Shown piece after piece: positions 44,097 to 61,529 of a DNA stretch of 64,000 nt (positions are counted from its first letter, which is position 1; every line of letters starts with the position of its first letter). Source of the DNA: Naumannella cuiyingiana (GTDB lineage Bacteria > Actinomycetota > Actinomycetes > Propionibacteriales > Propionibacteriaceae); contig NZ_JACBZS010000001.1 of assembly GCF_013408305.1 (NCBI RefSeq), positions 1,178,001 through 1,242,000 on the forward strand. Direction: 5' to 3'. Made by a program: the position numbers and the translations under genes. The notes beneath the pieces were generated by a model. That model searched no databases. It had not been told where the DNA came from and saw only the letters and a program-made list of their open reading frames with translations.

Positions 44097-45691
44097 CTGG
44101 TCGATCCCGTCACGAGTCGGCGGTCCGGGCGCCGCGAGGGCGGCTCGTACCGGAAAGCATCGGGCCGAAGCTCCTCCGGCCGCAACCGGCCCGAGGGCCC
44201 GGCCCCGCCCCCGTTGGGTGGCCCGCCGAAGGCGAGCCGGTCGTTGGCCCAGCCGGCCCACACGATGGCAAGCATGCCGACCATGCCGATGATGCCCTGG
44301 GAGTTGCGATCGGCGTACTGCAGGAAGCTGAAGGCCAGAACGATGATCACGCCCCAGCAGGACAGCCGGACCACCCGGCGGGAGAAGTGGGTGAGCGGGA
44401 GGAAGGTGCCCCACCAGGTGAGGTACCACGGATGCAGCGCCGGGCCGCCCATGGTGATCGCCACCAGGGCGTAGGCGAGGAAGTCGATCGGGCGCCGATA
44501 GGCGTGCCGGAAGTACAGGTACAGCACCCCGAAGACGGTGATGATCATGCCGACCTGGCGGAAGATGCGGACCACCCGACGGGCGATGTCGTAGTAACCG
44601 AGCTCATTCAGCGCGTTCTGCACGATCTCGCCCAGCATCGTGGTCGGGGCGATCGTGCTGACCATGCCGGGCACGTTCAGGCCCTGGACCCACCCCCAGC
44701 CGAGTCCGCAGGCCAGCGAGATCACCACGAAGGCGATCACCGTGGCCACCGTGCCGACGGCGACCACGAGCGCGCTGTGCCATTGTCGGGCCAGCGTGCT
44801 GGCCCGGCCGGCCGGTTGCGGCGGCATGGCGAGCAGCGCCACCGGCACCACGCCGACGATGGCGGGGATCTTGACGGCGGTGGCGGCGGCGACGAGCAGA
44901 CAGCCGACCAGGAAGCGGCCCTTGTTGGCCATCCAGAGCGCGAGCGCCAGCAGGGCAAGCATCACGGCGTCGTTGTGGGCGCCGCCGATCACGTGGATCA
45001 TCACCACCGGGTTGGCGATGGCGAACCACAGCGCCAGCCGCGGATCGGCGCCCACCCGGCGGGCCAGCGCCGGCAGGCACGCGGCGACCACGACCATGCT
45101 GATCATGGACAGCAGCCGCATGCCGAGCGTGGAGGACCAGTAGGGATTGAAGCCGAACAGGTCGACGACCAGATGATTGATCTGGAGCGCGACCGGGCCG
45201 TAGGGCGCCGGGGTGTAGCGCCAGATCGGGATCACCTGCTCGGCCCAGACGCCCGGGATCTGGGAGACGCCACCCTCGTTGTAGGGGTTGACGCCGTTGT
45301 GGATCAGCCAGCCCTCGGCGGCATAGGCGTAGGAATCGTCGCTGAAGACCGGCGGCGCGAACAGCATCGGCAGCGTCCACAGCGCCACCACGACCCGCAT
45401 GTCGACCAGCGGGCGGCCGATCCGCGGCCGGAGCTGGAACCACGCGTCGGCCAGCATGATCACGCCGAACAATGTCAGACCGGTCGCCAGCGCCCGCATC
45501 GGCGGGGTGTTCAGGTAGGGCACGATGTCGTACCACGGCGAGTTCTCCGGCAGGTACGCCGGGGAGATCGCGCCGAGCGCGAGCAGCAGGCTCGCCACCA
45601 TGCCGCGGCGTACCGACGCAACGGCCCATGCGTCGGCGACCAGCGCCCGCAGCACCGCCCAGCGGCGCCTCAGCAGTTCACCCCAGGTCAT
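44093..45691 (-). CDS. Polyprenol-phosphomannose alpha-1,6-mannosyltransferase, MptB-like
   Basis: 532-residue GT-C glycosyltransferase with about 12 membrane helices. The first extracytoplasmic loop has the acidic motif FSDDSYAYAAEGWLIHNGVNPY, expected to bind the polyprenyl-phosphomannose donor; FNPYWSSTLGMRLLS, GGAHNDAVMLALLALA and GGPALHPWYLTWWG are also conserved. In corynebacteria and mycobacteria MptA/MptB build the alpha-1,6-mannan core of lipomannan. A hydrophilic tail of about 50 residues follows the last helix. It is a paralogue of the next gene, 16 nt away. Confidence 0.87.
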   Translation of the reverse strand: MTWGELLRRRWAVLRALVADAWAVASVRRGMVASLLLALGAISPAYLPENSPWYDIVPYLNTPPMRALATGLTLFGVIMLADAWFQLRPRIGRPLVDMRVVVALWTLPMLFAPPVFSDDSYAYAAEGWLIHNGVNPYNEGGVSQIPGVWAEQVIPIWRYTPAPYGPVALQINHLVVDLFGFNPYWSSTLGMRLLSMISMVVVAACLPALARRVGADPRLALWFAIANPVVMIHVIGGAHNDAVMLALLALALWMANKGRFLVGCLLVAAATAVKIPAIVGVVPVALLAMPPQPAGRASTLARQWHSALVVAVGTVATVIAFVVISLACGLGWGWVQGLNVPGMVSTIAPTTMLGEIVQNALNELGYYDIARRVVRIFRQVGMIITVFGVLYLYFRHAYRRPIDFLAYALVAITMGGPALHPWYLTWWGTFLPLTHFSRRVVRLSCWGVIIVLAFSFLQYADRNSQGIIGMVGMLAIVWAGWANDRLAFGGPPNGGGAGPSGRLRPEELRPDAFRYEPPSRRPDRRLVTGSTR

Positions 45692-45707: not shown

Positions 45708-47237
45708 TCAGTGCGCCGGGACCAGCTCGGGCCGGCCGGGCCGCGGCACCCCGCGGGCGGGGAAGTGGATCCGGTCGTTGATCCAGCCGAGCCACAGGAA
45801 CGGCACGACCGCGATGATGCCGAGCAGCAGGGTGTCGTTGAGGAAGCAGTAGACGATGATGCTGGCGTACATGCCGATGGTCACCGTGAAGGCGCCGATC
45901 CGGCGGACCAGCAGGGAGGCATTGGTCAGCGGCAGCAGCGTCGAGGCCCAGGTGAAGTACCACGGGTGCAGGGCCGGGCCGCCGACCGTGATGGCCGCGA
46001 TGGCCGCCGTGACGAAGTCCATCGGCCGCCGCAACGCCCAGCGGTGGAACAGCCACAAGATGCCGACCACCGTGGCGACCATCCCGGTCTGCCGGAAGAT
46101 CCGCACCGCGCGGCGCCCGGCGTCGTAGAGGCCGAGCTCGTAGAGACCGATCCGGGCGACCTCGCCCAGCAGCACCCAGGGCGCCATGGTGACGACGATG
46201 CCGGGCACGTTCAGCCCCTCGATCCAGCCCCAGCCGAGGCCGGTGGCGAGCGAGATCGCGACGAAGGCCAGCACCGTCAGCGTCGAGGCGATCGAGACAT
46301 GCACGATCATCTGGAACTCGCGCTGCCAGCGCGTACCCCGCTTCGACACGGGCAGCGCGATCAGCGCGACCGGGACGGCGACCACGATCGCCGGCAGCTT
46401 GATCGCGGTGGCGGCGGCGACCGCGACGCAGGCGAGCAGGAAGCGACCGCGGGTGGCGAGCCAGAGCGCCAGCACGACCAGGCCGAGCATCCAGGCATCG
46501 TTGTGGGCGCCGCCGATGAAGTGCGTGACGGCGAGCGGGTTGGCGACCGCGAACCAGATCGCCGTCGCCGGGTCCGCGCCGAAGCGGCGGGCCAGGGCCG
46601 GCAGGCAGCCGGCGATCAGCGCCATGCCCGCGATCGAGAGCAGCCGCATGCCCAGGGTGGAGGACCAGTACGGGTTGAAGTTGAACAGCCCGACCACGAA
46701 CTCGCTGAGCTGCAGCGACAACGGCCCGTACGGCGCGATGGTGTAGCGCCAGACCAGCACCGCCTGCTCGCCGAACGGGCCGGGCATCATCCCGACGCCC
46801 ATCTCGTAGGGATTCTCGCCGTTGTGCAGCATCCAGCCCTCGGCCGCATAGGCGTAGGAGTCCTGGCTGAAGATGGGCGGCCCCAGCAGCATCGGCAGCG
46901 CCCAGAGCGCGACCACGACCCGTAGATCGGGCCGGGGGCCGTGCACTCGGGGCCGGAGCTGGAACCACGCGTCGACCAGCATCAGCGTGCCGACCAGCGT
47001 GAGCACCGTGGCGATCAGCTTCCAGGTCTGGCTCTCGCCGAGCCAGGGCAGGTACGCCAGCCAGGGCGAATTCGCCGGGGTGAAGGCCGGGGTGAAGGCG
47101 CCGATCGAGATCATCGCGGTCGCCAGCAGGCCCCGGCGTACCGCCGCGACGGCCCAGGCCCGCGCAACCTCGGTGACCAGCCCGGCCCAGAATGCGCGGA
47201 CCCGCGTCAACCACAGCGAGCCGGCAGCCTGCAGCAC
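45708..47237 (-). CDS. Polyprenol-phosphomannose alpha-1,6-mannosyltransferase, MptB-like
   Basis: 509 residues from GTG 47237, which has AAGGAG 7 nt upstream. It has the same landmarks as its neighbour: FSQDSYAYAAEGWMLHNGENPYEMGV, FNPYWSSTLGMRLLS, GGAHNDAWMLGLVVLALW, and GGPALHPWYFTWASTLLPL. The first Asp of the DD motif in the neighbour (SDDS) is Gln here (SQDS), which may affect donor binding or reflect a different acceptor. Tandem duplication is the likely origin. Longer readings to 47408 lack a ribosome binding site. Confidence 0.87.
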   Translation of the reverse strand: MLQAAGSLWLTRVRAFWAGLVTEVARAWAVAAVRRGLLATAMISIGAFTPAFTPANSPWLAYLPWLGESQTWKLIATVLTLVGTLMLVDAWFQLRPRVHGPRPDLRVVVALWALPMLLGPPIFSQDSYAYAAEGWMLHNGENPYEMGVGMMPGPFGEQAVLVWRYTIAPYGPLSLQLSEFVVGLFNFNPYWSSTLGMRLLSIAGMALIAGCLPALARRFGADPATAIWFAVANPLAVTHFIGGAHNDAWMLGLVVLALWLATRGRFLLACVAVAAATAIKLPAIVVAVPVALIALPVSKRGTRWQREFQMIVHVSIASTLTVLAFVAISLATGLGWGWIEGLNVPGIVVTMAPWVLLGEVARIGLYELGLYDAGRRAVRIFRQTGMVATVVGILWLFHRWALRRPMDFVTAAIAAITVGGPALHPWYFTWASTLLPLTNASLLVRRIGAFTVTIGMYASIIVYCFLNDTLLLGIIAVVPFLWLGWINDRIHFPARGVPRPGRPELVPAH

Positions 47238-47379
47238 GGGCGGCTCCTTCCAGTGACGTCGGGCCCGGGGATCAGGGCATCGGGGTCCGGTGAGACAGGC
47301 TACGGGAGCGCCCCGGCGGTGGGAAATACGACCGCAGTCGGGTTCTGGGCCTCCGTGCGTCGGGTACGCCATCCAGCTT

Positions 47380-47639
47380 GCGAGCCCAACCGGCACCCGC
47401 GAGCTCAACCGGCACCTGCGAGCTCAACCGGCATCTGCGAACGATACTCAGCCCGCACCTGCCGACTCAGCCCGCGGATGGAGCCAGGCCCACCCAAACG
47501 CGAACCCAACCGGCACCCGCGAACGTTACTCAGCCCGCGTCTGCCGGTTCAGCCCGCGGATGAGGTCAGGCCCACCCAAACGCGAACCCAACCGGCACCC
47601 GCGAACGTTACTCGGCCCGCGCCTGCCGGTTCGGCCCGC
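47380..47639. repeat. 82-bp tandem repeat with nested 19-bp repeat
   Basis: The 424-nt gap between the mannosyltransferase start and the MarR stop is filled largely by repeats. An 82-bp unit is complete at 47485-47566, with a nearly complete copy at 47567-47639 and a diverged copy at about 47403-47484. Nested at the left are three 19-bp copies related to GCGAGCTCAACCGGCACCT (47380-47398, 47399-47417, 47418-47436). No coding signal is seen. It may act as spacer DNA or carry protein-binding sites. Confidence 0.9.
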
Positions 47640-48159: not shown

Positions 48160-49416
48160 ATGATCTCCCGACGCTCCGCGTACCGATATGTCCGGGCGCT
48201 GGCGCTCGCCATCGGCTCGATCGCCGGCGCGGGCCTGCTGAGTACGCCGAGCGCGGTGCTGGCCGCGGCCGGCGACGCCGCGGTGCTCGCCTGGCTGGTC
48301 GCGCTCGCGATGTGCGTACCGATGTTGCTGATGTTCGGCGCGTCCGTGCGCCGGGATCCGGGCGGGATCGGGCTCGAGTCGCTCGTCCGCCGCGGCCTCG
48401 GCGATGTCGCGGGCGGAATGATCCCGGTGATGTTCGTCGGCGTGGTGGGGATCGGCCTGCCGACCGGGGCGATGGTCGCCGGACGGTTCGTCGCGCTGGC
48501 CACCGGCTGGCCGGCCGCCGAGCCGATCGCCGCGCTTGCCGTGCTCGGCACCGCCCTCGCGACGAATCTCGCGGGGCTGCGGACCGGGGATGCCGTCGGC
48601 CTGCTCGGCAGTTGGTCGCTGCTGATCGTCTGCGGCTGGCTGATCGTCACCGCCCTGGCCGGCGGCAGCCAGCGCGCCGATCTGTTACCGGGCGCCGATT
48701 GGTGGCAGCTCCTGCCCGCCGGGGTGACCCTCGCCTGCTGGGCGTTCATCGGCTTCGAGAACCTGACCTTCCTGAGCGATGAGCTGCCCGATCCGCACCG
48801 CGACTTCGTGCCGATCGCCGCCACCGCGTTGGCCGTGCTCGGCGTCGTCGCGATCGGCCTCACCGTGGCCATCGCCGCCAATGTGGCGCCGGAACGCCTC
48901 GACCCGGTGGGCGGCCTGTTGCAGCTCGCCGCCGGCCTCGGGCCGGCCGCGACGGCGGCGGGCGTCGGCGTCGCCGTGGTGGCCATGCTGATCAACGCGG
49001 TCGCCTGGCTGCGTGGCGTGTCGACGATGATCATCGGTGCGGCCGAGCGGGCCATGCTGCCGCGCGGCCTGGCCCGTCGCCGGCGCGCGCTTGGCCTGAT
49101 GGGCATCCTCTTCGCGCTGACCACGGCGGTCCTGCTCGCCCGGCCGGAACTGATCGTCGCCGGGCTGGCGGCCTCCAGCGCGACCTTCATCGCGATGTAT
49201 GTGATGTGCGTGCTCGCCTGGTTGATCCGGGGCGGGCCGCGCGGGCTGGGCATCGCCAATCTCGCCGTGCTGGTGGTGATGGGAGCGGCCGTGATCGGGA
49301 ACGGGCCGAGCAGCCTGCCCGCCCTCGGCATCGGCCTGGTCGCGCTGGCGATGTCCGTGCTGTTCGCCCGCCGGCGCGCCTCACGGGCAGCCGGCGCCCC
49401 GGTGAGCAAGCGGTGA
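48160..49416 (+). CDS. APC-family amino acid/amine permease
   Basis: 418 residues with about 12 membrane helices. The first helix IGSIAGAGLLSTPSAVLAAAG carries the G-x-G-x-G-type substrate loop of the APC superfamily, and CWAFIGFENLTFLSDELPDPHRDFVPIA matches TM6 and the loop after it. The substrate (amino acid or amine) is unknown. It is divergent from the MarR gene and probably regulated by it. No ribosome binding site is obvious. Confidence 0.82.
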   Translation: MISRRSAYRYVRALALAIGSIAGAGLLSTPSAVLAAAGDAAVLAWLVALAMCVPMLLMFGASVRRDPGGIGLESLVRRGLGDVAGGMIPVMFVGVVGIGLPTGAMVAGRFVALATGWPAAEPIAALAVLGTALATNLAGLRTGDAVGLLGSWSLLIVCGWLIVTALAGGSQRADLLPGADWWQLLPAGVTLACWAFIGFENLTFLSDELPDPHRDFVPIAATALAVLGVVAIGLTVAIAANVAPERLDPVGGLLQLAAGLGPAATAAGVGVAVVAMLINAVAWLRGVSTMIIGAAERAMLPRGLARRRRALGLMGILFALTTAVLLARPELIVAGLAASSATFIAMYVMCVLAWLIRGGPRGLGIANLAVLVVMGAAVIGNGPSSLPALGIGLVALAMSVLFARRRASRAAGAPVSKR

Positions 49417-49423
49417 TCAGCCG

Positions 49424-49466
49424 GTAACGCGCACCGCGATCGGCTGAAACACGGCCCTCCTAGCGT
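49424..49466 (+). promoter_or_regulatory. narK promoter with GlnR-like half sites
   Basis: GTAAC (49424-49428), 17 nt, GAAAC (49446-49450), 10 nt, TAGCGT (49461-49466). The 5-17-5 spacing equals two conserved half sites of a GlnR box (n6-5-n6), and the same GAAAC-10 nt-TAGCGT arrangement precedes nirB. A leader of about 20 nt with AGGAGG follows before GTG 49495. Confidence 0.55.
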
Positions 49467-49494
49467 CGGCGGCACACCCGAGCAGGAGGCCGCC

Positions 49495-50916
49495 GTGACC
49501 ACCACCCAATCCCCGGACGTCACCCCCGACGTCGCGCCCGAAGCCACAACGAGCGCCGGGGCGAGCGCCGCGCGTACCGGCCTGCGCGGCGCGCCCGGCC
49601 GCTGGCTGCACGGCTGGGACCCCGAGAACCGCGCCCAGTGGGACGGCGGAGGGCGCGCGATCGCCCGGCGCAATCTGTGGCTGTCGATCTTCGCCGAGTT
49701 CCTCGGCTTCGGCGTCTTCGCGCTCTGGGGCATCGCGGTGCCGATGCTTGCCGCGTGGGGCTACACGGGTCCGCTCGCGCTGAGCAATGCCGAGCAGTTC
49801 TGGCTGGTGTCGATCCCGATCCTGGTCGGCGCGACCATGCGGATCCCCTATACGTTCGCGGTCCCGCTGGTCGGCGGCCGGAACTGGACGGTGATCTCGG
49901 CGCTGCTGCTGTTGGCGCCGACTGTCGGGCTCGCGCTCGCGGTGTCGGCGCACGCGCCGTTCCCCGTCCTGCTGGTGGTCGCCGCGCTGGCCGGCTTCGG
50001 GGGCGGCAACTTCGCCTCCTCGATGACCAACATCTCCTTCTTCTACCCCGCGGCGGAGAAGGGTGCCGCGCTCGGCCTGAACGCGGCCGGCGGCAACCTG
50101 GGCACGGCGGCCGTGCAGTTCACCGCGCCGCTGGTGGTGCTGATCGGCGCCACGACCATGTCGGCCGGTGCGACCGTGCCCAACCTGCCCGCGGTCGGCT
50201 GGGTCTTCGCCCCGTTCGTGCTGCTCGCGGCCATGCTGGCCTGGCGCTTCATGGACAATGTCGCCGACGCCAAGGCCGACCCGAAGTCGTTCGCCGCGGC
50301 GGTACGCCGTCCGCAGACCTGGCTGTTGTCCCTGCTCTACATCGGCACGTTCGGGTCCTTCATCGGCTTCGCCGGCGCCTTCCCCAAGCTGCTCACCGAC
50401 GCCTTCCCCGAGGCCAGCCTGAAGATCGCCTTCCTCGGCGCGCTGGTCGGCTCGTTGTCCCGGCCGCTCGGCGGGATCGTCGCCGACCGGGTCGGCGGCT
50501 GGGTGATCACGGTGATCTCGTTCGCCGGAATGGCGCTCGGCGCCGGCGGCGCGATCTTCGCCCTCCAGGCCGGAAGCCTGGCCGCCTTCATGATCAGCTT
50601 TGTCTGCCTGTTCGTCTTCACCGGAATCGGCAACGGTTCGATCTACCGGATGATCCCGGCGGTTTTCGCCGCCACCGAACCGGACCGCTCCCCCGCCGGC
50701 CGGCTCGCCACCCTGCGCCTGACCGGAGGCGCGATCGGTATCGTTGGCGCCATCGGCGCCTACGGCGGCTTCGTCATCCCGCAGGGATTCTCGCTGTCGA
50801 TGGCGCTGTCGGGTGGCTCGATCGTGCCCGCCCTGCTGGCGATCATCGGCGTGTACCTGATCTTCGGCATCCTCACCTGGCGCCTCTACGGCCGCGGCTT
50901 CGGCGCCCGGATCTGA
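49495..50916 (+). CDS. narK: Nitrate/nitrite transporter, MFS NarK family
   Basis: 473 residues, 12 membrane helices after a 60-residue hydrophilic N-terminus. The nitrate signature GFGGGNFASSMTNISFFYP and its second-half partner GIGNGSIYRMIPAVF are both present, along with the pore arginine in ATMRIPYTF. It imports nitrate for the reductase encoded next, whose start overlaps its stop (TGATG). GTG start with AGGAGG upstream. Confidence 0.94.
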   Translation: MTTTQSPDVTPDVAPEATTSAGASAARTGLRGAPGRWLHGWDPENRAQWDGGGRAIARRNLWLSIFAEFLGFGVFALWGIAVPMLAAWGYTGPLALSNAEQFWLVSIPILVGATMRIPYTFAVPLVGGRNWTVISALLLLAPTVGLALAVSAHAPFPVLLVVAALAGFGGGNFASSMTNISFFYPAAEKGAALGLNAAGGNLGTAAVQFTAPLVVLIGATTMSAGATVPNLPAVGWVFAPFVLLAAMLAWRFMDNVADAKADPKSFAAAVRRPQTWLLSLLYIGTFGSFIGFAGAFPKLLTDAFPEASLKIAFLGALVGSLSRPLGGIVADRVGGWVITVISFAGMALGAGGAIFALQAGSLAAFMISFVCLFVFTGIGNGSIYRMIPAVFAATEPDRSPAGRLATLRLTGGAIGIVGAIGAYGGFVIPQGFSLSMALSGGSIVPALLAIIGVYLIFGILTWRLYGRGFGARI

Positions 50917-53024
50917 TGACCGACACGCATTGCCCCTACTGCGCCCTGCAGTGCGCGATCACGCTGACCGTCGACGAGACGGGCGGCAACCGCACGGTCA
51001 GCGTCGCCCCGCGCGACTTCCCGACCAACCTCGGCGGGCTGTGTCAGAAGGGCTGGACCGCGGCAACGCTGTTGGACCATCCCGACCGGCTGACCACGCC
51101 GCTGGTCCGGCGCGACGGTGCGCTGGTGCCGGCCAGCTGGGACGAGGCGTACGCCGTGATCATCGAGCGGGTACGCCGGGTGCAGGACGAGTCCGGGCGC
51201 GACGCCGTGGCCGTCTTCGGCGGCGGCGGGCTGACCAACGAGAAAGCCTACCTGCTCGGCAAGTTCGCCAGGCTCGCGCTCGGCACATCCATGATCGACT
51301 ACAACGGCCGGTTCTGCATGTCGTCGGCGGCCGCGGCGGGCAACCGCGCCTTCGGGCTGGACCGCGGGCTGCCGTTCCCGCTGGCCGATCTCGGCGGCGC
51401 CGACGCCGTCCTGCTCGCCGGGTCCAATCTCGCCGCGACGATGCCGCCGGCGGTCCGCCACCTCGCCAGCATCCGCGAGCGCGGCGGGCTGATCGCGATC
51501 GATCCGCGGCGCAGCGAGACCGCGCGGCTCACCGACGACGGCGCCGGCATCCATCTGCGCAATCTTCCGGGCAGCGATCTCGCGGTGCTGCTCGGCCTGT
51601 TGCAGGTGATCATCGCCGAGGACCGTTGCGACGAGGACTATCTCGCGTCCCGCACCACGGGCTGGCCACGGGTACGCGCGGCCGCCGCCCAGTGGTGGCC
51701 CGAACGCGTCGAGCGGGCCTCGGGCGTACCAGCCGATGCCTTGCGCCAGGCCGCCCGGCTACTCGCCGCCGCGAGCCCCGCACGCGGTGGTGCGGGGGCG
51801 TACCTGCTGACCGGTCGGGGCGCGGAGCAGCACGCCCACGGCACCGACACGGTGACCGCGGTGATCAACCTCGCGCTGGCGCTCGGCCTGCCCGGGCGCG
51901 CCGGCAGCGGCTACGGCGCGATCACCGGCCAGGGCAACGGCCAGGGCGGCCGCGAGCACGGGCAGAAGAACGATCAGCTCCCCGGCTACCGCAAGATCAC
52001 CGATCACGCCGCCCGGGAACACGTGGCGAGCGTGTGGGGAGTCGCTCCCGAGACGATCCCGGGCCCGGGCGTACCGGCCGTCCAACTGCTGCGGTCGCTC
52101 GGTACGCCGGGCGGGCCGCGCGCCCTGTTCGTGCACGGCGCCAACCCGGTGATCAGCGGCCCCGATGCGCAGGTGATCACCGAGCGGCTCGCGGCGCTCG
52201 ACCTGCTGGTGGTGTGCGACTTCTTCCGCTCCGAGACCGCGGAGCTGGCCGATGTCGTGCTACCGGTCACCCAGTGGGCCGAGGAGACCGGCACCATGAC
52301 CTCGCTGGAGGGCCGTGTGCTGCGGCGCCGGCGCGCGGTCCCGCCGCCCGAGGGGGTGCGCGACGAGTTGCGCGTGCTGGCCGACCTGGCCGGCCGGCTC
52401 GGCTGCCGCGCCGACTTCCCCACCGATCCCGATGCGGTGCTCGCCGAGCTGGGCCGCGCGAGCGCGGGCGGGATCGCCGACTACGGCGGCATCACCCCCG
52501 AACGGCTGGACCGCGGCGAGGCGCTGCACTGGCCCTGTCCGGCCGATGATCATCCCGGCACGCCGCGGCTGTTCGCCGAGCGGTTCGCCACCCCCGACGG
52601 GCGCGCGGCCATGATCGCGGTCGAGCCCGCCCCGGTGGACGATGATCTTCGACCCGATGCACCGATCTACCTGATCACCGGGCGGGTGCTGCAGCAGTAC
52701 CAGTCCGGCGCGCAGACCCGCCGCGTGGCCGCGCTGAATCGCGTGCAGGGCAGCGGTTTTGTCGAGCTGCACCCGCGGCTGGCCCGGCGCCTGGAAGTCG
52801 CCGAGGGCGAGCTGGTCCGGGTCCGCTCGGCGCGCGGGGAGGCCTGCGCGCCGGCGCGGATCAGCGCCGACCTGCGGCCCGACGTGGTGTTCATGCCGTT
52901 CCATTTCCCCGGGCAGGAGCGCGCCAACACGCTGACCAATCCGACGACCGACCCGGTCAGCGGGATGCCCGAGTTCAAGGTCTGCGCGGTCGAGGTGACG
53001 AAGATCAAGGAGGCGGCATGCTGA
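50916..53024 (+). CDS. Assimilatory nitrate reductase catalytic subunit
   Basis: 702-residue molybdopterin oxidoreductase that reduces nitrate to nitrite. The N-terminal [4Fe-4S] site is CPYCALQC with the fourth Cys in GGLCQKG. Mo-bis-MGD landmarks include YNGRFCMSSAAAAGNRAFGLDRG (Cys as probable Mo ligand), LLAGSNLAATMPP, GYGAITGQGNGQGGREHGQK, VHGANPVIS and, in the C-terminal domain, YLITGRVLQQYQSGAQTRR. No extra ferredoxin domain, so electrons come from the flavoprotein encoded next (7-nt overlap). Equivalent to NasA/NasC. Confidence 0.93.
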   Translation: MTDTHCPYCALQCAITLTVDETGGNRTVSVAPRDFPTNLGGLCQKGWTAATLLDHPDRLTTPLVRRDGALVPASWDEAYAVIIERVRRVQDESGRDAVAVFGGGGLTNEKAYLLGKFARLALGTSMIDYNGRFCMSSAAAAGNRAFGLDRGLPFPLADLGGADAVLLAGSNLAATMPPAVRHLASIRERGGLIAIDPRRSETARLTDDGAGIHLRNLPGSDLAVLLGLLQVIIAEDRCDEDYLASRTTGWPRVRAAAAQWWPERVERASGVPADALRQAARLLAAASPARGGAGAYLLTGRGAEQHAHGTDTVTAVINLALALGLPGRAGSGYGAITGQGNGQGGREHGQKNDQLPGYRKITDHAAREHVASVWGVAPETIPGPGVPAVQLLRSLGTPGGPRALFVHGANPVISGPDAQVITERLAALDLLVVCDFFRSETAELADVVLPVTQWAEETGTMTSLEGRVLRRRRAVPPPEGVRDELRVLADLAGRLGCRADFPTDPDAVLAELGRASAGGIADYGGITPERLDRGEALHWPCPADDHPGTPRLFAERFATPDGRAAMIAVEPAPVDDDLRPDAPIYLITGRVLQQYQSGAQTRRVAALNRVQGSGFVELHPRLARRLEVAEGELVRVRSARGEACAPARISADLRPDVVFMPFHFPGQERANTLTNPTTDPVSGMPEFKVCAVEVTKIKEAAC

Positions 53025-54517
53025 ACGGGATGCGGATCGTGGTGATCGGCAACGGCATGGTCGGCTCCCGGTTCTGCGCGGGGCTGGCGGGCTGCGGCGC
53101 GAAGATCACCGTCCTCGGCGCCGAGCCCTACGCCGCGTACAACCGGCTGCAGCTCTCCGAGGTGATCGCCGGCCGCGCCGAGCTGGGCTCGCTGGAGCTT
53201 CCCGGACCGCCGCCGGAGGCGACGGTGCTGCGCGGGGTCGCGGCGACCGCGATCGATCGGGTACGCCGCCGCGTGCGCGACAGCGCCGGCACCGAACACC
53301 CCTACGACCTGTGCGTGCTCGCCACCGGGGCCCGGGCCCGGCTGCCGCTGCCCGGCGCCCCGAGCGAGCCGCCGCCCGGGGTGCGCACGCTGCGCGACCT
53401 CGACGACTGCCGCGAGCTGCTGGCGGCCGCCGCCACCCATGACGACATCACCGTGCTCGGCGGCGGGCTGCTCGGGGTGGAGCTGGCCTGCGGGCTGCGT
53501 ACCCACGGCGTCAACGTCACGCTGATCAACAACGGCCCGTACCCGCTGCAGCGCCAACTGCCCGAGGGCGCCGGCCGGATCGCCGAGGCCACGCTCACCG
53601 ATCTCGGGGTACGGGTGATCAACAACGCCGAGGTACGCGGCTGGGGCCACCGTGGCACCCGGCTGACCGTCCTCACCCTGGCCACGGCGGCCGGCCCGAC
53701 CCGGGTGCCGACCTCGCTGCTGGTGGTCACCGCCGGCGTCTCTGCGCGCACCGAACTCGCCCGCGCCGCCGGCCTGCCGATCCGGCGCGGGGTCGTGGTG
53801 GGCGAGGACCTGCTGAGCCCGGCCGACCCCGCGATCGCAGCCATCGGCGACTGTGCGGAGACACCGGACGAGGGCTGCCCCGGCCTGCTGGCACCTGGCT
53901 GGGCACAGGCCGACCGCCTGGCGAGCCGGCTGCGCGGCGAGGCCCGGCGCCCGCCGGAGGCGGCCGGCGAGGTGATCGCGCTGAAGGCGGTGGGCCTGCA
54001 GGTGACCGCCCTCGGCGAGCTCGACTGGGCGACGACGGAGGCCGGCGGTACGCGGGTGCTGGAACTGTCCGATGCCGCGGCCCGGCGCGCCGTGCGGATC
54101 GCGGTCCGCGACGACCGACTGGTCGGCGCCGTCTGCGTCGGGGCCCCGCGCACGGCGGCCGACCTCACGGTGGCCTTCGAGCGACGCACGGCGCTGCCGC
54201 CCGACCCCGCGGAGCTCCTGCTCGCCGGCGACGGGCGACGTACCGATCCCACGGACCTGCCCGCCGCCGCCACGGTCTGCCGCTGCAACGGCGTGAACCG
54301 GGCCGAGATCGACCGGGCCCACGACTGCGGCGCCCGGACCGTGGAAGAAGTGGCGTGCGCCACCCGCGCCGGCACCGGCTGCGGCTCCTGCACCGGTCTG
54401 GTCGCCGCGCTGCTGCAGGCCGCGGCGGACAGGGTCACCGGTGATCGTGACGGGAGTGAGGGCCTTGTTGCAGGGCCGAAACATTCCGCACCGCTCGCCG
54501 AAACAAGCGCCACCTAG
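53018..54517 (+). CDS. Nitrate reductase electron-transfer flavoprotein with BFD-type [2Fe-2S] domain
   Basis: 499 residues. A pyridine nucleotide-disulphide oxidoreductase domain (VVIGNGMVGSRFCAGL, ITVLGGGLLGVELACGL, AIGDCAETP) resembles the N-terminal half of NirB. A C-terminal BFD-like domain has four Cys (TVCRCNGV and GTGCGSC) for [2Fe-2S]. It should pass electrons from NAD(P)H to the nitrate reductase, like Bacillus NasB. Unlike NirB it has no sirohaem domain. The nirB promoter lies within its last codons. Confidence 0.88.
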   Translation: MLNGMRIVVIGNGMVGSRFCAGLAGCGAKITVLGAEPYAAYNRLQLSEVIAGRAELGSLELPGPPPEATVLRGVAATAIDRVRRRVRDSAGTEHPYDLCVLATGARARLPLPGAPSEPPPGVRTLRDLDDCRELLAAAATHDDITVLGGGLLGVELACGLRTHGVNVTLINNGPYPLQRQLPEGAGRIAEATLTDLGVRVINNAEVRGWGHRGTRLTVLTLATAAGPTRVPTSLLVVTAGVSARTELARAAGLPIRRGVVVGEDLLSPADPAIAAIGDCAETPDEGCPGLLAPGWAQADRLASRLRGEARRPPEAAGEVIALKAVGLQVTALGELDWATTEAGGTRVLELSDAAARRAVRIAVRDDRLVGAVCVGAPRTAADLTVAFERRTALPPDPAELLLAGDGRRTDPTDLPAAATVCRCNGVNRAEIDRAHDCGARTVEEVACATRAGTGCGSCTGLVAALLQAAADRVTGDRDGSEGLVAGPKHSAPLAETSAT

Positions 54518-54520
54518 CGT
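54478..54520 (+). promoter_or_regulatory. nirB promoter with GlnR-like half sites
   Basis: GAAAC (54478-54482), 17 nt, GAAAC (54500-54504), 10 nt, TAGCGT (54515-54520). Spacing is identical to the narK promoter. It overlaps the end of the flavoprotein gene. A leader with GGAGGTG follows before ATG 54558. Confidence 0.6.
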
Positions 54521-54557: not shown

Positions 54558-57167
54558 ATGACCGACCAGCGAATCGTGGTGATCGGCGCCGGCATGGTCG
54601 CCCAGAGGTTCGTCGAGGCGCTGGCCGACCGCGACGGATCCGCCGCCGTCACGGTCGTCGGCGAGGAGCCGCACGCGCCGTACGACCGGGTCGCCCTGAC
54701 CAGCTATTTCACCGGCGGCGCGGATGCCCTCGCCCTGGGCGATCCCGGGCTGTGGAAGCGGCCGGGTGTGCAGTTGGTCAGCGGGGTCGCCGCGACGGCA
54801 ATCGACCGCGATCGGCGTACCGTCACCCTCGCCGACGGACGCGAGCTGGGCTACGACGCGCTGGTCCTGGCGACCGGATCCCGGGCGTTCGTGCCGCCGG
54901 TCCCGGGCAGCGATCTGATCAACTCCTTCGTCTATCGCACGATCGACGACGTGCGCAGCATCGAGGCCTGCGTCCACGAGCTGGCGGCACGGCTCGACCG
55001 TCCGGTCCGCGGTGCGGTGATCGGCGGCGGGCTGCTCGGCCTGGAGGCGGCCGGCGCGCTGCGGGCGATGAACGCCGAGGCGGCCGTGATCGAGTTCGCG
55101 CCGCGGCTGATGCCGCTGCAGGTCGACGAGGGCGGCGGCGCCGAGCTGGCCCGGATCATCGCCGGACTCGGCGTGGACGTGCGGACCGGCACCGCCACCA
55201 AGCAGGTGCTCGCCGACGACGCGGGCGCGGTCCGCGCGCTCGACCTGGGCGAGGCCGAGCTCGACGCCGATCTGGTGATCTTCGCCACCGGGGTACGCCC
55301 GCGCGACGAGCTGGCCCGAGACGCCGGGCTGGCGATCGGCGAGCGCGGCGGCGCCGTGGTGGATGCCGGCTGCCGGACCAGCGACCCGGCGATCCTGGCC
55401 ATCGGCGAGGTGGCCTGCATCGGCGGTGCCGTGTGGGGGCTGATCGCCCCGGGCAATGCGATGGCCGAGATCGCGGTCGACCGCCTGCTCGGCGGGCAGG
55501 GCACCTTCCCGGGTGCGGACACCTCGGCCAAGCTCAAGCTGCTCGGCGTCGACGTCGCCTCGTTCGGGGACGCGTTCGCGACGACCCCGGGCGCGCTGGA
55601 GGTGGTGCACGCCGATCCGGTCACCGGCCGCTACGGCAAGCTGGTCGTCTCCGACGACGCCCGGACGCTGCTGGGCGGGATCCTGGTCGGCGACGCGTCG
55701 GCGTACCCGACCCTGCGGCCGCTGCTCGGCACCGAACTCTCCGCGGACCCGTCGGCCTACCTGGTCGGCGGCACTGCCGCGCCGGGCTCCGAGCAGTTGC
55801 CCGATGCCGCCGCGGTCTGCTCGTGCAACAACGTGACCGCGGGCACGGTGCGCGCGGCGGTCAGCGAGCACGGCTGCACCGATCTGGCCGCGGTGAAGGG
55901 CTGCACGAAGGCGGGCACCAGTTGCGGGTCGTGCCTGCCGCTGGTCAAGAGGCTGGTGGAGACCGAGCTGGCGGCCGCCGGGATCGAGGTCTCCCGCGCG
56001 CTCTGCGAGCACTTCGCGCTGGGCCGGGCCGAGCTCTTCGAGGCGGTACGCCTGACCGGGCTCGGCACCTTCTCCGAGATCATCGCCCGACACGGCCGCG
56101 GCGGGCGCGGCTGCGACATCTGCAAACCGGTGGTCGCCTCGATCCTCGCCAGCCTCGGCAACGGGCACATCCTCTCCGGCGAACAGGGCGCGCTGCAGGA
56201 CACCAACGACCACATGCTCGCCAACCTGCAGAAGGACGGCAGCTACTCGGTGGTGCCGCGCATCCCGGGCGGCGAGATCACCCCGGACGGGCTGATCACC
56301 ATCGGCGAGGTGGCGCGCGAGTTCGGGCTCTACACCAAGATCACCGGCGGCCAGCGGATCGATCTGTTCGGGGCGCGGGTGGAGCAGTTGCCGCAGATCT
56401 GGCGGCGCCTGGTGGAGGCCGGCTTCGAATCGGGCCACGCCTACGGCAAGGCGCTGCGGACCGTGAAGTCCTGCGTCGGCTCGACCTGGTGTCGCTACGG
56501 CGTACAGGACTCGGTCGCGATGGCGATCCGGCTGGAGCTGCGCTACCGCGGACTGCGGGCGCCGCACAAGATCAAGCTGGGAGTCTCCGGCTGCGCCCGG
56601 GAGTGCGCCGAGGCGCGCGGCAAGGACGTCGGCGTGATCGCCACGGACAAGGGCTGGAATCTCTACCTGGGCGGCAATGGCGGCTTCTCGCCCAAGCACG
56701 CCCAGCTCTTCGCGGAGGACCTGGACGACGACGGGTTGATCACGCTGATCGACCGTTTCCTGATCTACTACGTGCGCACCGCCGACCGGTTGCAGCGCAC
56801 CGCCGGCTGGCTGGAGTCGCTGGACGGCGGGCTGGACCGGTTGCGCGAGGTGATCGTCGACGACCGGCTCGGGGTGGCGGCCGATCTGGACGCCGCGATG
56901 GCCGCCCACGTCGCGGGCTATCGCGACGAGTGGGGCGAGGTGCTCGACGACCCGGACAAGTTGGCCCGGTTCGGATCCTTCGTCAATGCGGCGCAGACGC
57001 CCGATCCCGATCTTGCCTATGTCGGCGAGCGCGGTCAGCGGCGGCCGGCGACCCCGGCCGAGCGCGCCGCGGCGGCCTCCGGCGGGCTGCAGTTGATCAC
57101 GCCCGATCGCGAACCCGTACTGATCTCGGATTCCCGGCTCCCCACCCGCAGGAAGGACCCGCAATGA
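54558..57167 (+). CDS. nirB: NAD(P)H nitrite reductase large subunit
   Basis: 869 residues. Domains in order: FAD/NAD(P)H oxidoreductase (1-330; VVIGAGMVAQRFVEAL, VIGGGLLGLEAAGAL), rubredoxin-like linker, BFD-like [2Fe-2S] domain (VCSCNNVTAGTV, GTSCGSCLP, about 415-470), then the nitrite/sulphite reductase half. The sirohaem-[4Fe-4S] cysteines are visible in KSCVGSTWCRYG and GVSGCARECAEARGKD. Six-electron reduction of nitrite to ammonium. ATGA overlap with nirD. Confidence 0.96.
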   Translation: MTDQRIVVIGAGMVAQRFVEALADRDGSAAVTVVGEEPHAPYDRVALTSYFTGGADALALGDPGLWKRPGVQLVSGVAATAIDRDRRTVTLADGRELGYDALVLATGSRAFVPPVPGSDLINSFVYRTIDDVRSIEACVHELAARLDRPVRGAVIGGGLLGLEAAGALRAMNAEAAVIEFAPRLMPLQVDEGGGAELARIIAGLGVDVRTGTATKQVLADDAGAVRALDLGEAELDADLVIFATGVRPRDELARDAGLAIGERGGAVVDAGCRTSDPAILAIGEVACIGGAVWGLIAPGNAMAEIAVDRLLGGQGTFPGADTSAKLKLLGVDVASFGDAFATTPGALEVVHADPVTGRYGKLVVSDDARTLLGGILVGDASAYPTLRPLLGTELSADPSAYLVGGTAAPGSEQLPDAAAVCSCNNVTAGTVRAAVSEHGCTDLAAVKGCTKAGTSCGSCLPLVKRLVETELAAAGIEVSRALCEHFALGRAELFEAVRLTGLGTFSEIIARHGRGGRGCDICKPVVASILASLGNGHILSGEQGALQDTNDHMLANLQKDGSYSVVPRIPGGEITPDGLITIGEVAREFGLYTKITGGQRIDLFGARVEQLPQIWRRLVEAGFESGHAYGKALRTVKSCVGSTWCRYGVQDSVAMAIRLELRYRGLRAPHKIKLGVSGCARECAEARGKDVGVIATDKGWNLYLGGNGGFSPKHAQLFAEDLDDDGLITLIDRFLIYYVRTADRLQRTAGWLESLDGGLDRLREVIVDDRLGVAADLDAAMAAHVAGYRDEWGEVLDDPDKLARFGSFVNAAQTPDPDLAYVGERGQRRPATPAERAAAASGGLQLITPDREPVLISDSRLPTRRKDPQ

Positions 57168-57568
57168 CCACCACCGAGCTCCACCACCGGCACACCTCCG
57201 CCCTCCCCGCCTGGACCACGGTCTGCACGGTCGCGCGGCTGCCCGTCGAGCGCGGGGTCGCCGCACTCGTCGCCGGCCGACAGGTGGCGATCTTCCGGCT
57301 GCACGACGACCGGGTGTTCGCCGTCGGCCACCGCGACCCGTTCACCGGGGTGAACGTGATCGCCCGCGGCATCGTCGGCTCCGCGCGGATCGGCGACGAG
57401 CTGGTGCCGACGGTCGCCTCCCCGCTGCACAAGCAGGTGTTCGATCTGCGTACCGGCGAGTGCCTGAGCGAGCCCGGCGTCGAGCTGGGCCGCTGGGACG
57501 TCCGGGTGCGCGAGGAGTGGGTGCAGGTACGCCCGGCCGTCGCGATCCCCCGCGCCGAGGTCGCCTGA
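57164..57568 (+). CDS. nirD: Nitrite reductase small subunit
   Basis: 134 residues with a Rieske-like fold: WTTVCTVARLPVERGVAALVAGRQVAIFRL, VFAVGHRDPFTGVNVIARGIVG, SPLHKQVFDLRTGECL. The C-H/C-H iron ligands of true Rieske proteins are absent, as is normal for NirD. It completes the NirBD complex and is coupled to nirB (ATGA) and to the methyltransferase gene downstream (TGATG). Confidence 0.95.
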   Translation: MTTTELHHRHTSALPAWTTVCTVARLPVERGVAALVAGRQVAIFRLHDDRVFAVGHRDPFTGVNVIARGIVGSARIGDELVPTVASPLHKQVFDLRTGECLSEPGVELGRWDVRVREEWVQVRPAVAIPRAEVA

Positions 57569-58305
57569 TGCCCGGGACGGGCCGCGTCGTGCTGGTCGGC
57601 GGCGGCCCGGGCGCGGACGACCTGATCACGGTCCGCGGCCTGCGGGCGTTGCAGTCCGCCGACGTGGTCGTCGCCGACCGGCTGGCCCCGCGCGGGCTGC
57701 TGGTCGGCCTGCGCGCGGAGATCATCGACGTCGGCAAGACGCCCTACCATCACCCCGTGCCGCAGGCCGAGATCAACGCGCTGCTGGTCGACCACGCCCG
57801 GGCCGGGCGCGCGGTCGTCCGGCTGAAGGGCGGCGACCCGTTCCTGCTCGGCCGCGGCGGCGAGGAGGTCGCGGCCTGCCGCGCCGCCGGCGTCGAGGTC
57901 GAGGTAGTGCCCGGGGTGAGCTCGGCCATCGCCGCACCCGCCGCCGCCGGCATCCCGGTCACCCACCGCGGGGTCGCCCAGGGGCTGTTGGTCATCTCCG
58001 GACACGACGAGCTGTCGCCCGCATTCCTCGCCGCGTGGCCACACACGCTGGTCGTACTGATGGGCATGGCGCGGTTGGCGGAGCTGACCGCCGGGTTGCT
58101 GCGGGCGGGCAAACCCGCCGCCACGCCCGCCGCCGTCGTGCAGCGCGCCTGGGGCGCCGGGCAGCGGGTGGTCCGAGCCCCGCTCGCCGAACTGCCCGCG
58201 CGGGTCACGAAGACGCAACTGGCCAACCCCGCGGTGATCGTGATCGGCCCGGTGGCCGCACTGGGCGCCGAGCTGGGCGAGGTGGTCGATGCAGCCGTCG
58301 CCTGA
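57568..58305 (+). CDS. Uroporphyrinogen-III C-methyltransferase
   Basis: 245 residues, SUMT/CobA type. GRVVLVGGGPGADDLITVRGL, ADVVVADRLAP, RAVVRLKGGDPFLLGRGGEE, VPGVSSAIAAPAAAGIPVTHRG and VVLMGMARL are diagnostic. It makes precorrin-2 for sirohaem, the NirB cofactor. No CysG-type dehydrogenase/chelatase domain is attached, so those steps are encoded elsewhere. It starts in a TGATG overlap with nirD. Confidence 0.95.
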   Translation: MPGTGRVVLVGGGPGADDLITVRGLRALQSADVVVADRLAPRGLLVGLRAEIIDVGKTPYHHPVPQAEINALLVDHARAGRAVVRLKGGDPFLLGRGGEEVAACRAAGVEVEVVPGVSSAIAAPAAAGIPVTHRGVAQGLLVISGHDELSPAFLAAWPHTLVVLMGMARLAELTAGLLRAGKPAATPAAVVQRAWGAGQRVVRAPLAELPARVTKTQLANPAVIVIGPVAALGAELGEVVDAAVA

Positions 58306-59422
58306 TCAGCTCTCCGGCTGCCGCGTGGTCCTCACCGCGCAGCGCCGGGCCGCCGAGTTCGCCGCAGCCCTGGAGCGCCGGGGCGCGTCGGTACTGCACG
58401 CCCCGACCCTTTCGGTGGTGCCGCACGTCGACGACAGCGAGCTCTTCCGGCGTACCACCGAACTGATCGAGAAGCCGCCGGATGTCACCGTGATCACCAC
58501 CGGCGTCGGCTTTCGCGGTTGGCTGGAGGCGGCCGACGCCGCGGGGGTGGCGACCCCACTCCTCCGTGTGCTCGGGCAGTCGCGGCTGATCGCGCGCGGA
58601 CCCAAGGCGCGCGGGGCCCTGCAGGCCGCCGGGCTGACCGCGGACTGGGTCGCCGAGTCCGAGACCAGCGCCGAGATCGCCGACCTGCTGCTGAGTGAGG
58701 GGGTGGCCGGTCAGCGGATCGCCATCCAGCACCACGGGTCCGGCGCGGACGGCCTCGACGAGGCCTTCGCGACCGCCTGTGCCGAGGTCTGCTCGCTGGT
58801 CGTCTACCGCTGGGGGCCGGCGCCCGACCCGGCTGCGGTCGCCGAGAGCGTGCGGCTCGTCGCCCGTCGCGAATGCGATGCCGTCGCCTTCACCTCCGCC
58901 CCCGGCGTCGCGGCCTTCCTCGACGCCGCCACCGAGCAGCGGGTGCTGGCCGAGGTCGCGCAGGCCTTCGCCGACGAGGACGGGGTCCTGGCCGCGGCGG
59001 TCGGCGTGATCACCGCCGGGCCGCTGCTCGAGCTCGGCGTGCAACCCCTGGTGCCCGACCGTTTCCGGCTCGGCGCGCTGGTCCGCGGCATCGTCCGCGA
59101 GCTCGGCGAGCGGCGCGGGCTGCGGCTGCTCACCTGCGGCGGCGAGCTGCGGCTGCTGCGCGGCGCGGCGCTGCTGGACGGCGAGGTGTTGCCGCTCTCG
59201 CCCGCCAGCCTCGCCGTGCTGCGGGTGCTCGCCGAGGCGGGCGGCGCCGTCGTGCACCGCGACGACATCCTGCGCGCCCTCCCGGGCAGCTCCGTCGACC
59301 CGCACGCCGCCGAGATGGCGGTGGCGCGGTTGCGCGGCACCCTGGCGCCGAGCGACCTGGTGCGTACCGTCATCCGCCGCGGCTACCGGCTGGCCGTGCC
59401 CGCGGCGTCCGTCGCCCGCTGA
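58289..59422 (+). CDS. Uroporphyrinogen-III synthase fused to a winged-helix DNA-binding domain
   Basis: 377 residues. Residues 10-255 are a HemD-type domain (GCRVVLTAQRRAAEFAAALERRGA, TTGVGFRGWLEAADAAGV, DAVAFTSAPGVAAFLDAA). Residues about 270-372 form an OmpR/PhoB-like winged helix: LLDGEVLPLSPASLAVLRVLAE, GAVVHRDDILRALPG and VRTVIRRGYRLAVP. Such fusions are known in actinobacterial nitrite reductase clusters and are suspected regulators. It overlaps the methyltransferase gene by 17 nt and ends the nitrate cluster. Confidence 0.88.
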   Translation: MQPSPDQLSGCRVVLTAQRRAAEFAAALERRGASVLHAPTLSVVPHVDDSELFRRTTELIEKPPDVTVITTGVGFRGWLEAADAAGVATPLLRVLGQSRLIARGPKARGALQAAGLTADWVAESETSAEIADLLLSEGVAGQRIAIQHHGSGADGLDEAFATACAEVCSLVVYRWGPAPDPAAVAESVRLVARRECDAVAFTSAPGVAAFLDAATEQRVLAEVAQAFADEDGVLAAAVGVITAGPLLELGVQPLVPDRFRLGALVRGIVRELGERRGLRLLTCGGELRLLRGAALLDGEVLPLSPASLAVLRVLAEAGGAVVHRDDILRALPGSSVDPHAAEMAVARLRGTLAPSDLVRTVIRRGYRLAVPAASVAR

Positions 59423-59471
59423 GCGCCGCTCCCGCGCGCCCGGTCCGCGTCCCAGCAACTGGCGGATGCGG

Positions 59472-59496
59472 TCAACCGTGGTTGAGCACCTACGAT
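59472..59496 (+). promoter_or_regulatory. Palindrome and -10-like box upstream of korA
   Basis: TCAACC-GT-GGTTGA (59472-59485) is a perfect 14-nt dyad followed 5 nt later by TACGAT (59491-59496), a TANNNT hexamer. It may be an operator/promoter for korAB; the mRNA leader would be about 65 nt. Confidence 0.4.
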
Positions 59497-59567
59497 GGAC
59501 GTTGCTCCGAAATTCGGGACGCCGCCGTTGCGGAAACCGGCGTGGCGTAGATGCGAAAGGCCAACGG

Positions 59568-61529
59568 GTGACAGCAGTCAAGAACCTCGACCGGGTCGTG
59601 ATCCGGTTCGCCGGCGACTCCGGCGACGGCATGCAGCTCACCGGCGACCGGTTCACCGCGGACTCGGCGTTGTTCGGCAACGACATCTCCACCCTGCCGA
59701 ACTTCCCAGCCGAGATCCGCGCCCCCGCCGGCACGCTGCCCGGCGTGTCCAGCTTCCAGTTGCACTTCGCCAATTACGACATCCTCACCCCCGGCGATCG
59801 GCCGGACGTGCTGGTCGCGATGAACCCGGCGGCGCTCAAGGCGAACCTGTCCGATCTGCCGCGCGGCGGGCTGATCATCGCCGACAGCGCGGAGTTCACC
59901 AAGCGCAATCTGCAGAAGGTGGGGTACGCCGAGAGCCCGCTGGAGGACGGCTCGCTGGAGGCCTACCAGGTGCACGCGCTGGACCTGACCGGGATGACCG
60001 TCGAGGCCGTGAAGGACTTCGGCCTGTCCCGCAAGGACGCCTCGCGCGCCAAGAACATGTTCGCGCTCGGGCTGTTGAGCTGGCTCTACCACCGACCCGT
60101 GGAGTCGACGCTGGAGTTCTTGTCGACGAAGTTCGCCAACAAGCCCGATATCCGCGACGCCAACCTCACCGCCTTCCGGACCGGCCATGCCTATGGCGAG
60201 ACGACCGAGACCTTCGCGGTCACCTACCAGGTCGACCCGGCGCCGATGCCGACCGGCACCTACCGTCAGATCACCGGCAACACGGCGCTGGCCTACGGCC
60301 TGATCACGGGCGCGCACAAGGCGGGGCTGCCGCTGTTCCTCGGTGCGTACCCGATCACGCCGGCCTCCGACGTCTTGCACGAATTGTCCAAGCACAAGGC
60401 GTTCGGGGTGACGACCTTCCAGGCCGAGGACGAGATCGCCGCGGTCGGCGCGGCGCTCGGCGCGAGCTTCGCGGGACACCTGGGAGTCACCACATCCTCC
60501 GGCCCGGGCGTGTCGCTGAAGATGGAGACGATCAGCCTCGGCGTGATGACCGAGCTGCCCATGATCATCTGCGATGTGCAGCGCGCCGGCCCGTCGACGG
60601 GCATGCCGACCAAGACCGAGCAGGCGGACCTGCTGCAGGTGCTCTACGGCCGCAACGGCGAGGCGCCGGTGCCGGTGCTGGCGGCGCAGACCCCGAGCGA
60701 CTGCTTCGACACGGCGGTGGAGGCGGCGCGCTGGGCGATCAAGTACCGCACCCCGGTCGTCGTGCTCTCCGACGGCTATCTCGCCAACGGAGCGGAGCCG
60801 TGGGAGGTGCCGAATCTGGCGGCGATCGAGCCGATCGATCCGGGCTTCGCGACCGAGCCGAACGGCACCGCGACGGACGCCAAGGGCAACGAGAAGCCGA
60901 CCTTCCTGCCGTACCGGCGCGACGAGGAGACGCTGGCGCGGCCGTGGGCGATCCCGGGGACGGCCGGGCTGGAGCACCGGCTCGGCGGCATCGAGAAGGC
61001 CGACGGCACCGGCAACGTGTCCTACGATCCGGCCAATCACGAGAAGATGATCAACCTGAGGCAGGCCAAGATCGACGGCATCGTGCGCGAGATCCCCGAT
61101 CTCGAGGTCGACGATCCGGACGGCAAGGCGCGGCTGCTGGTGCTGGGCTGGGGTTCGTCCTACGGCCCGATCGCGGCGGCGGTACGCCGGGTGCGCAATG
61201 CCGGCGGGCACATCGCGCAGACGCACCTGCGGCACCTGAACCCGTTCCCGGCCAACCTCGGCGAGGTGCTGCGGCGCTACGACAAGGTGATCGTGCCCGA
61301 GATGAACCTCGGCCAGTTGGCGATGCTGCTGCGCGCGAAGTACCTGGTGGACGTGCAGTCCTATTCGCGGGTACGCGGCCTGCCGATCTCGCTGGCCGAG
61401 CTCGCCCACGACCTGCTGGAGCTGGTCCGCGACGAGGTCGGACCCGTGCCGGAGGAGTCCGAACTGGCCGCGGAGCCGGAGCAGCACGGCCAACACGAAG
61501 TCGTCTTCGATCATGGGAGGCAGCAGTGA
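59568..61529 (+). CDS. korA: 2-oxoacid:ferredoxin oxidoreductase, alpha subunit (gamma-alpha fusion)
   Basis: 653 residues from GTG 59568 (GAAAGG upstream). The N-terminal gamma domain (VVIRFAGDSGDGMQLTGDRF) is fused to the alpha domain: GAYPITPASDVLHELSKH, FQAEDEIAAVGAALGAS, TTSSGPGVSLKMETISL and VPEMNLGQLAMLLRAKYL. With KorB it converts 2-oxoglutarate to succinyl-CoA and reduced ferredoxin. Actinobacteria often use this in place of, or beside, 2-oxoglutarate dehydrogenase. GTGA overlap with korB. Confidence 0.95.
   Translation: MTAVKNLDRVVIRFAGDSGDGMQLTGDRFTADSALFGNDISTLPNFPAEIRAPAGTLPGVSSFQLHFANYDILTPGDRPDVLVAMNPAALKANLSDLPRGGLIIADSAEFTKRNLQKVGYAESPLEDGSLEAYQVHALDLTGMTVEAVKDFGLSRKDASRAKNMFALGLLSWLYHRPVESTLEFLSTKFANKPDIRDANLTAFRTGHAYGETTETFAVTYQVDPAPMPTGTYRQITGNTALAYGLITGAHKAGLPLFLGAYPITPASDVLHELSKHKAFGVTTFQAEDEIAAVGAALGASFAGHLGVTTSSGPGVSLKMETISLGVMTELPMIICDVQRAGPSTGMPTKTEQADLLQVLYGRNGEAPVPVLAAQTPSDCFDTAVEAARWAIKYRTPVVVLSDGYLANGAEPWEVPNLAAIEPIDPGFATEPNGTATDAKGNEKPTFLPYRRDEETLARPWAIPGTAGLEHRLGGIEKADGTGNVSYDPANHEKMINLRQAKIDGIVREIPDLEVDDPDGKARLLVLGWGSSYGPIAAAVRRVRNAGGHIAQTHLRHLNPFPANLGEVLRRYDKVIVPEMNLGQLAMLLRAKYLVDVQSYSRVRGLPISLAELAHDLLELVRDEVGPVPEESELAAEPEQHGQHEVVFDHGRQQ

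Follow-up and report, generated by a model that had tools for sequence, protein, structure and literature searches.

Introduction

The window analysed here is a 64,000-nucleotide stretch of the genome of Naumannella cuiyingiana (RefSeq assembly GCF_013408305.1, contig NZ_JACBZS010000001.1, positions 1,178,001 to 1,242,000) and carries a cluster of nitrate assimilation genes in which narK and nirB head separate transcription units. Both genes are preceded by the sequence GAAAC-N10-TAGCGT, which raises the question of what binds the two promoters and whether a single regulator accounts for them. A first-pass annotation of the sequence had noted a second half site 17 nt further upstream in each case, likened the gap to that of a GlnR box and proposed one activator for both units. 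Here we describe the complete layout of the two promoters, their counterparts in the same genome and their conservation in other actinobacteria. We conclude that both are very probably composite, activator-dependent operators of GlnR and NnaR, the predicted binding following from homology and from published work on mycobacteria and Streptomyces. The operator is real, conserved and of an already known kind; the pathway is known as well, and its control is seen here in an unusually clean form.

Gene content and regulators

All genes of the cluster are located on the plus strand. narK (49495..50916) encodes a nitrate/nitrite transporter with a match to Pfam MFS_1, the NCBIfam NarK/NarU matches lying below their curated cut-offs. 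It is followed by nasA (50916..53024) for the catalytic subunit of assimilatory nitrate reductase, of which the best NCBIfam match, NasC with 719 bits, is below the equivalog cut-off. Between nasA and nirB lies a gene for a stand-alone FAD reductase with a BFD domain (53018..54517), which resembles the N-terminal half of NirB and is probably the electron donor of NasA. nirB (54558..57167) encodes the nitrite reductase large subunit (1017 bits in NCBIfam, above the cut-off), and a cobA/cysG-type uroporphyrinogen-III methyltransferase gene (57460..58305), for the siroheme of NirB, is located downstream. The next gene, nnaR (58289..59422), still within the cluster and located 3.7 kb past the nirB promoter, encodes the candidate regulator of both promoters, a protein of the co-activator kind with a HemD domain and a winged helix (Pfam HEM4 and Trans_reg_C); it scores 425 bits against NCBIfam PRK07239, the cut-off being 273. 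Directly downstream of nnaR, positions 59466-62623 hold 2-oxoacid:ferredoxin oxidoreductase genes, the alpha subunit recognised by Pfam and the beta subunit by position. On the minus strand, 44093-45691 and 45708-47408 encode adjacent paralogous membrane proteins that resemble, judged by eye only, the mycobacterial mannosyltransferases MptA/MptB.

A GlnR homologue, which the first-pass annotation had proposed to look for, is encoded outside the cluster (G000:C1:2271635, minus strand). This protein of 218 amino acids matches the solved structures 8hig (250 bits) and 8hih (246 bits) best, followed at a distance by RegX3 (107 bits) and MtrA (104 bits). We take 8hig and 8hih to be GlnR; their database labels read only OmpR-family or transcriptional regulators. 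Another protein with a Trans_reg_C match (L011) was rejected as GlnR, since by eye it resembles SARP/BTAD-type activators.

Promoter layout

The sites described earlier, GTAAC-17-GAAAC-10-TAGCGT before narK and GAAAC-17-GAAAC-10-TAGCGT before nirB, were recovered exactly. In a pattern search of the 3.53-Mb genome GAAAC-N10-TAGCGT has exactly these two matches, with 0.34 expected from base composition; including the upstream half site lowers the expectation to 0.00026 per genome. With the -10 element relaxed to TANNNT, GAAAC-N10-TANNNT gives seven matches in the genome and one in the reversed control.

The initial description of the shared architecture covered its downstream half correctly and missed three elements further up, GTGAG, CTCAC/GTCAC and GTNNN. 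The complete ladder common to both promoters reads (C/G)TCAC-17-GTGAG-6-GTNNN-6-G(T/A)AAC-17-GAAAC-10-TAGCGT, the elements being set out by 11-bp steps. At narK it consists of a predicted NnaR palindrome CTCAC-N17-GTGAG (49380..49406, GTGAG starting at 49402), a weak predicted GlnR half site a1 (GTGAT, 49413..49417), the predicted half site b1 (GTAAC, 49424..49428), an a2 position without recognisable half site (CGCGA, 49435..49439), the predicted half site b2 (GAAAC, 49446..49450) and, 10 nt after it, the -10 element TAGCGT (49461..49466), all on the plus strand. The b1 and b2 sites are pattern matches, and the -10 assignment agrees with a spacing peak in the promoters of relatives. GTGAT contains the TGA with which the preceding permease gene ends.

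The corresponding elements of nirB, also on the plus strand, are a predicted NnaR palindrome with one mismatch, GTCAC-N17-GTGAG (54434..54460, GTGAG starting at 54456), followed by the predicted GlnR half sites a1 (GTTGC, 54467..54471) and b1 (GAAAC, 54478..54482), an a2 position again without recognisable half site (CACCG, 54489..54493), the predicted half site b2 (GAAAC, 54500..54504), again 10 nt before the -10 element, and TAGCGT (54515..54520). Here the palindrome and the a2 position were read from the ladder, b1, b2 and the -10 element are pattern matches, and a1 was obtained in both ways. The TAG of this -10 element also terminates the preceding reductase gene, so that most of the nirB operator lies within the 3' end of that gene.

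In both promoters GTGAG is one 22-bp step and CTCAC (GTCAC at nirB) two such steps upstream of b1, with GTNNN in register 11 bp upstream of b1. Taking a GlnR box as at least a1-b1-b2 at 11-bp steps (gTnAc / GaAAc), nirB has GTTGC-6-GAAAC-17-GAAAC and narK has GTGAT-6-GTAAC-17-GAAAC; a1 is imperfect and a2 degenerate at both. Next to these boxes, the published NnaR operator form CTCAC[A/C]-about 16-[T/G]GTGAG is matched by perfect half sites at narK and with one mismatch at nirB, the narK palindrome departing from the published motif only in its 17-nt spacer (PMC11162112, PMC6277429). No -35 element is recognisable at narK, and a TTGACA-like -35 is absent from both promoter sequences.

Over the 87 bp compared, 24 of 26 motif bases are identical between narK and nirB, as against 20 of 61 filler bases (33%, with 30% expected by chance). 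A duplication of the promoter block was rejected on this ground, and the earlier reading of conserved spacing holds.

Other sites in the genome

The glnA promoter (G000:C1:2766267, minus strand, the gene being recognised from its sequence) reads GTAAC-6-GAAAC-6-GCAAC-6-GAAAT-10-TAGCGT. The GlnR half sites stand in the same register as at narK and nirB, the last of them 10 nt before TAGCGT; glnA differs in that its four-site box is complete and the NnaR palindrome is absent. A GlnR core without palindrome is what should be expected of a promoter controlled by GlnR only. The genome encodes a clear GlnR, and glnA repeats the box and its distance to an identical -10 element; both findings bear out the proposal of a GlnR-type operator on the two transcription units. 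The box is shared with glnA, a core GlnR target. The promoter of amtB (L110, G000:C1:2991534), the single ammonium transporter gene, has a variant, GTAAC-16-GAAAC-10-CAGACT, which resembles a GlnR site with a gap of 16 instead of 17 nt. The expectation that other nitrogen genes might share the pattern was accordingly borne out by glnA, with GAAAT for GAAAC, and not by amtB, which lacks the form GAAAC-N10-TANNNT.

Allowing one mismatch, the GlnR part of the pattern has six sites in the genome, narK, nirB and glnA among them, and a longer version, in which at most three mismatches were tolerated, finds nirB, narK and glnA only (two in the reversed control). The five further GAAAC-N10-TANNNT sites in the genome were rejected, some lying in coding sequence and the rest before genes without evident role in nitrogen metabolism; the ladder is absent from all five. 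Three GlnR-box-like matches (L101-L103) were likewise discarded as being within coding sequence or not before recognised nitrogen genes. NnaR-like palindromes CTCAC-N17-GTGAG number seven in the genome and four in the reversed control; the six besides narK, which have no GlnR half sites at ladder distances, were set aside and probably occur by chance. Neither outcome named beforehand as speaking against GlnR control was encountered: the full pattern does not precede unrelated genes, and a GlnR-type regulator is present.

Conservation in other actinobacteria

A total of 80 nirB loci of other actinobacteria was collected, in which narK, nasA and nnaR were located; the window itself is counted once each in the nirB and narK sets. 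The threshold of the ladder score was the best value among 320 control windows from nirB coding sequence. It is reached or exceeded upstream of nirB in 43 of 80 cases, of narK in 47 of 62 and of nasA in 28 of 59; upstream of nnaR 2 of 71 regions reach it.

Distance histograms, which do not presuppose the ladder, were computed for the 201 upstream regions of nirB, narK and nasA with the reversed sequences as control. G[AT]AAC and TANNNT are 15 nt apart, start to start, in 47 of the 201 (background 0.3); GNAAC to GNAAC peaks at 22, and GTG[AC]G to GNAAC at 22 and 44. The distance from CTCAC to GTG[AC]G is 23 in 36 regions and 22 in 10, with a background of 0.3. These peaks are absent from the reversed sequences. 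Although left out of the scoring, a1 is kept as GTNNC in relatives (in narK, 93% have the T); a2 is unconserved in their narK and nirB promoters, and the -10 element varies as TANNNT.

The strict composite GTGNG-17-GNAAC-17-GAAAC-10-TANNNT is a search pattern with almost no false positives, giving 48 sites in 47 of the 294 genomes of the order and none in the reversed control. Nine of these sites were read out: seven precede nirB or narK, another precedes glnA, and the ninth probably matches by chance. NnaR is encoded by 46 of the 47 genomes with the composite versus 169 of all 294 (Fisher P about 2e-11), with the reservation that the genomes are phylogenetically non-independent, most matches coming from one genus (g27), so that the independent cases are fewer than 47.

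The spacer of the NnaR palindrome in relatives is 18 nt in 31 and 17 nt in 13 narK promoters, and 18 nt in 22 and 17 nt in 4 nirB promoters. Both promoters of the window have 17 nt and belong to the minority class. Within the same family, the narK spacer is likewise 17 nt at two other loci (L145 and L146), and the nirB spacer is 18 nt at a third (L144). The nirB promoters of Actinomadura (L044, L052, L053, L056, L060, L066) read GTGAG-6-TTAAC-6-GTGAC-17-GAAAT/GTAAT and so retain the GlnR ladder without the CTCAC half, in genomes that encode NnaR.

Regulation of narK and nirB

If the -10 element is placed at -12 to -7, b2 falls at about -27 to -23, b1 at -49 to -45 and a1 at -60 to -56, and the NnaR halves at -71 to -67 and -93 to -89. 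GlnR would bind the three 5-bp half sites a1, b1 and b2 in one helical register, a2 being degenerate. With b2 close to the usual -35 contact point, GlnR may substitute for the missing -35 element and bring RNA polymerase to TAGCGT. An NnaR dimer on CTCAC-N17-GTGAG, one 22-bp step or two helical turns further upstream and on the same face of the DNA, would stabilise GlnR. Nitrogen limitation, sensed through GlnR, and a suitable nitrate/nitrite or siroheme status, sensed through NnaR, would then jointly activate both units, which probably respond in concert to a shortage of ammonium with nitrate available. For glnA, with the GlnR part alone, the nitrogen-limitation signal would suffice.

Of the earlier proposal of one activator for both units, the shared GlnR survives; the activators are probably two, because the upstream NnaR palindrome sets narK and nirB apart from glnA and nnaR lies in the same cluster. 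That GlnR alone runs both promoters, the CTCAC/GTGAG pair being incidental or a further GlnR half site, is improbable. GTGAG does resemble the a-site GTNAC, it is retained without CTCAC in Actinomadura, and glnA manages with the GlnR core; against this stand the strong enrichment of CTCAC-to-GTG[AC]G distances of 22-23 and the identity of the palindrome with the published motif of a regulator encoded in the cluster itself. Still less probable is another regulator of the OmpR type (MtrA, PhoP or RegX3) in place of GlnR on the half sites, although several such regulators are encoded in the genome and in mycobacteria the MtrA motif is nearly identical to that of GlnR and MtrA binds nirB (PMC6277429). 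MtrA and PhoP regulons are broad, whereas the array occurs only at nirB, narK and glnA, which are core GlnR targets. MtrA and PhoP-type regulators do bind GlnR-box-like sites and could compete with GlnR. Both promoters read TAGCGTCGG, and the likeness of GAAAC (taken as -35) and CGTC (taken as -10) to ECF elements suggests recognition by an alternative sigma factor of the ECF type. This is hardly credible, since the two elements are 13 nt apart, less than is usual in ECF promoters, the GAAAC-type site recurs at 22-bp steps, the -10 of relatives varies and the sole other copy in the genome belongs to glnA.

For the composite GlnR-NnaR operator a more general form can be proposed, to which we give an even chance: NnaR and GlnR would fill one uninterrupted 11/22-bp ladder, fixed 10 nt before the -10 element, that is shared by the nitrate assimilation promoters of Actinomycetes, with a spacer of 17 or 18 nt according to lineage. 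This would imply a direct, side-by-side contact between NnaR and the GlnR protomer on a1 and a structural AND gate. The locus offers an exact and testable geometry for the joining of nitrogen-hunger and nitrate signals at one promoter.

Comparison with known systems

The nas promoter of Amycolatopsis mediterranei, as described in a review (PMC10704036), likewise belongs to a nitrate assimilation operon and has three useful GlnR half sites, a1-b1-b2 being needed and a2 dispensable. The poor middle half sites remarked on in the first-pass annotation match this documented state. The b1-b2 gap of nas is reported as 16 bp as compared to 17 here, and the review describes no NnaR site for it.

The closest systems are nirB and narK of Mycobacterium smegmatis and Streptomyces coelicolor, with the same targets, the same two regulators and the palindrome upstream of a start-proximal GlnR box (PMC6277429, PMC10704036). 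In M. smegmatis the NnaR motif c-t-C-A-C-a/c-16N-t/g-G-T-G-a-g is located beside the GlnR box with a conserved spacing noted by the authors, the start site following downstream of the box; GlnR and NnaR both bind the narK and nirB promoters, as seen for NnaR in EMSA, and upon nitrogen depletion the expression of both genes is lost without either GlnR or NnaR (PMC6277429). At S. coelicolor nirB the two proteins are reported to bind cooperatively, according to the review, which cites Amin 2012 (PMC10704036). The two M. smegmatis proteins associated weakly in pull-down and not in two-hybrid assays (PMC6277429); given so weak a complex, cooperation may run through the DNA or the polymerase. The base-exact 22-bp ladder, not stated in the published accounts of M. 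smegmatis and S. coelicolor consulted, is seen here. The present locus further differs from both in that a narK-nasA-reductase unit precedes nirB, and from M. smegmatis in the palindrome spacer, which is 18 nt there and 17 nt at both promoters here; the 17 nt fall within the range of the form CTCAC[A/C]...13-16 bp...GTGAG given for S. coelicolor and M. tuberculosis (PMC11162112).
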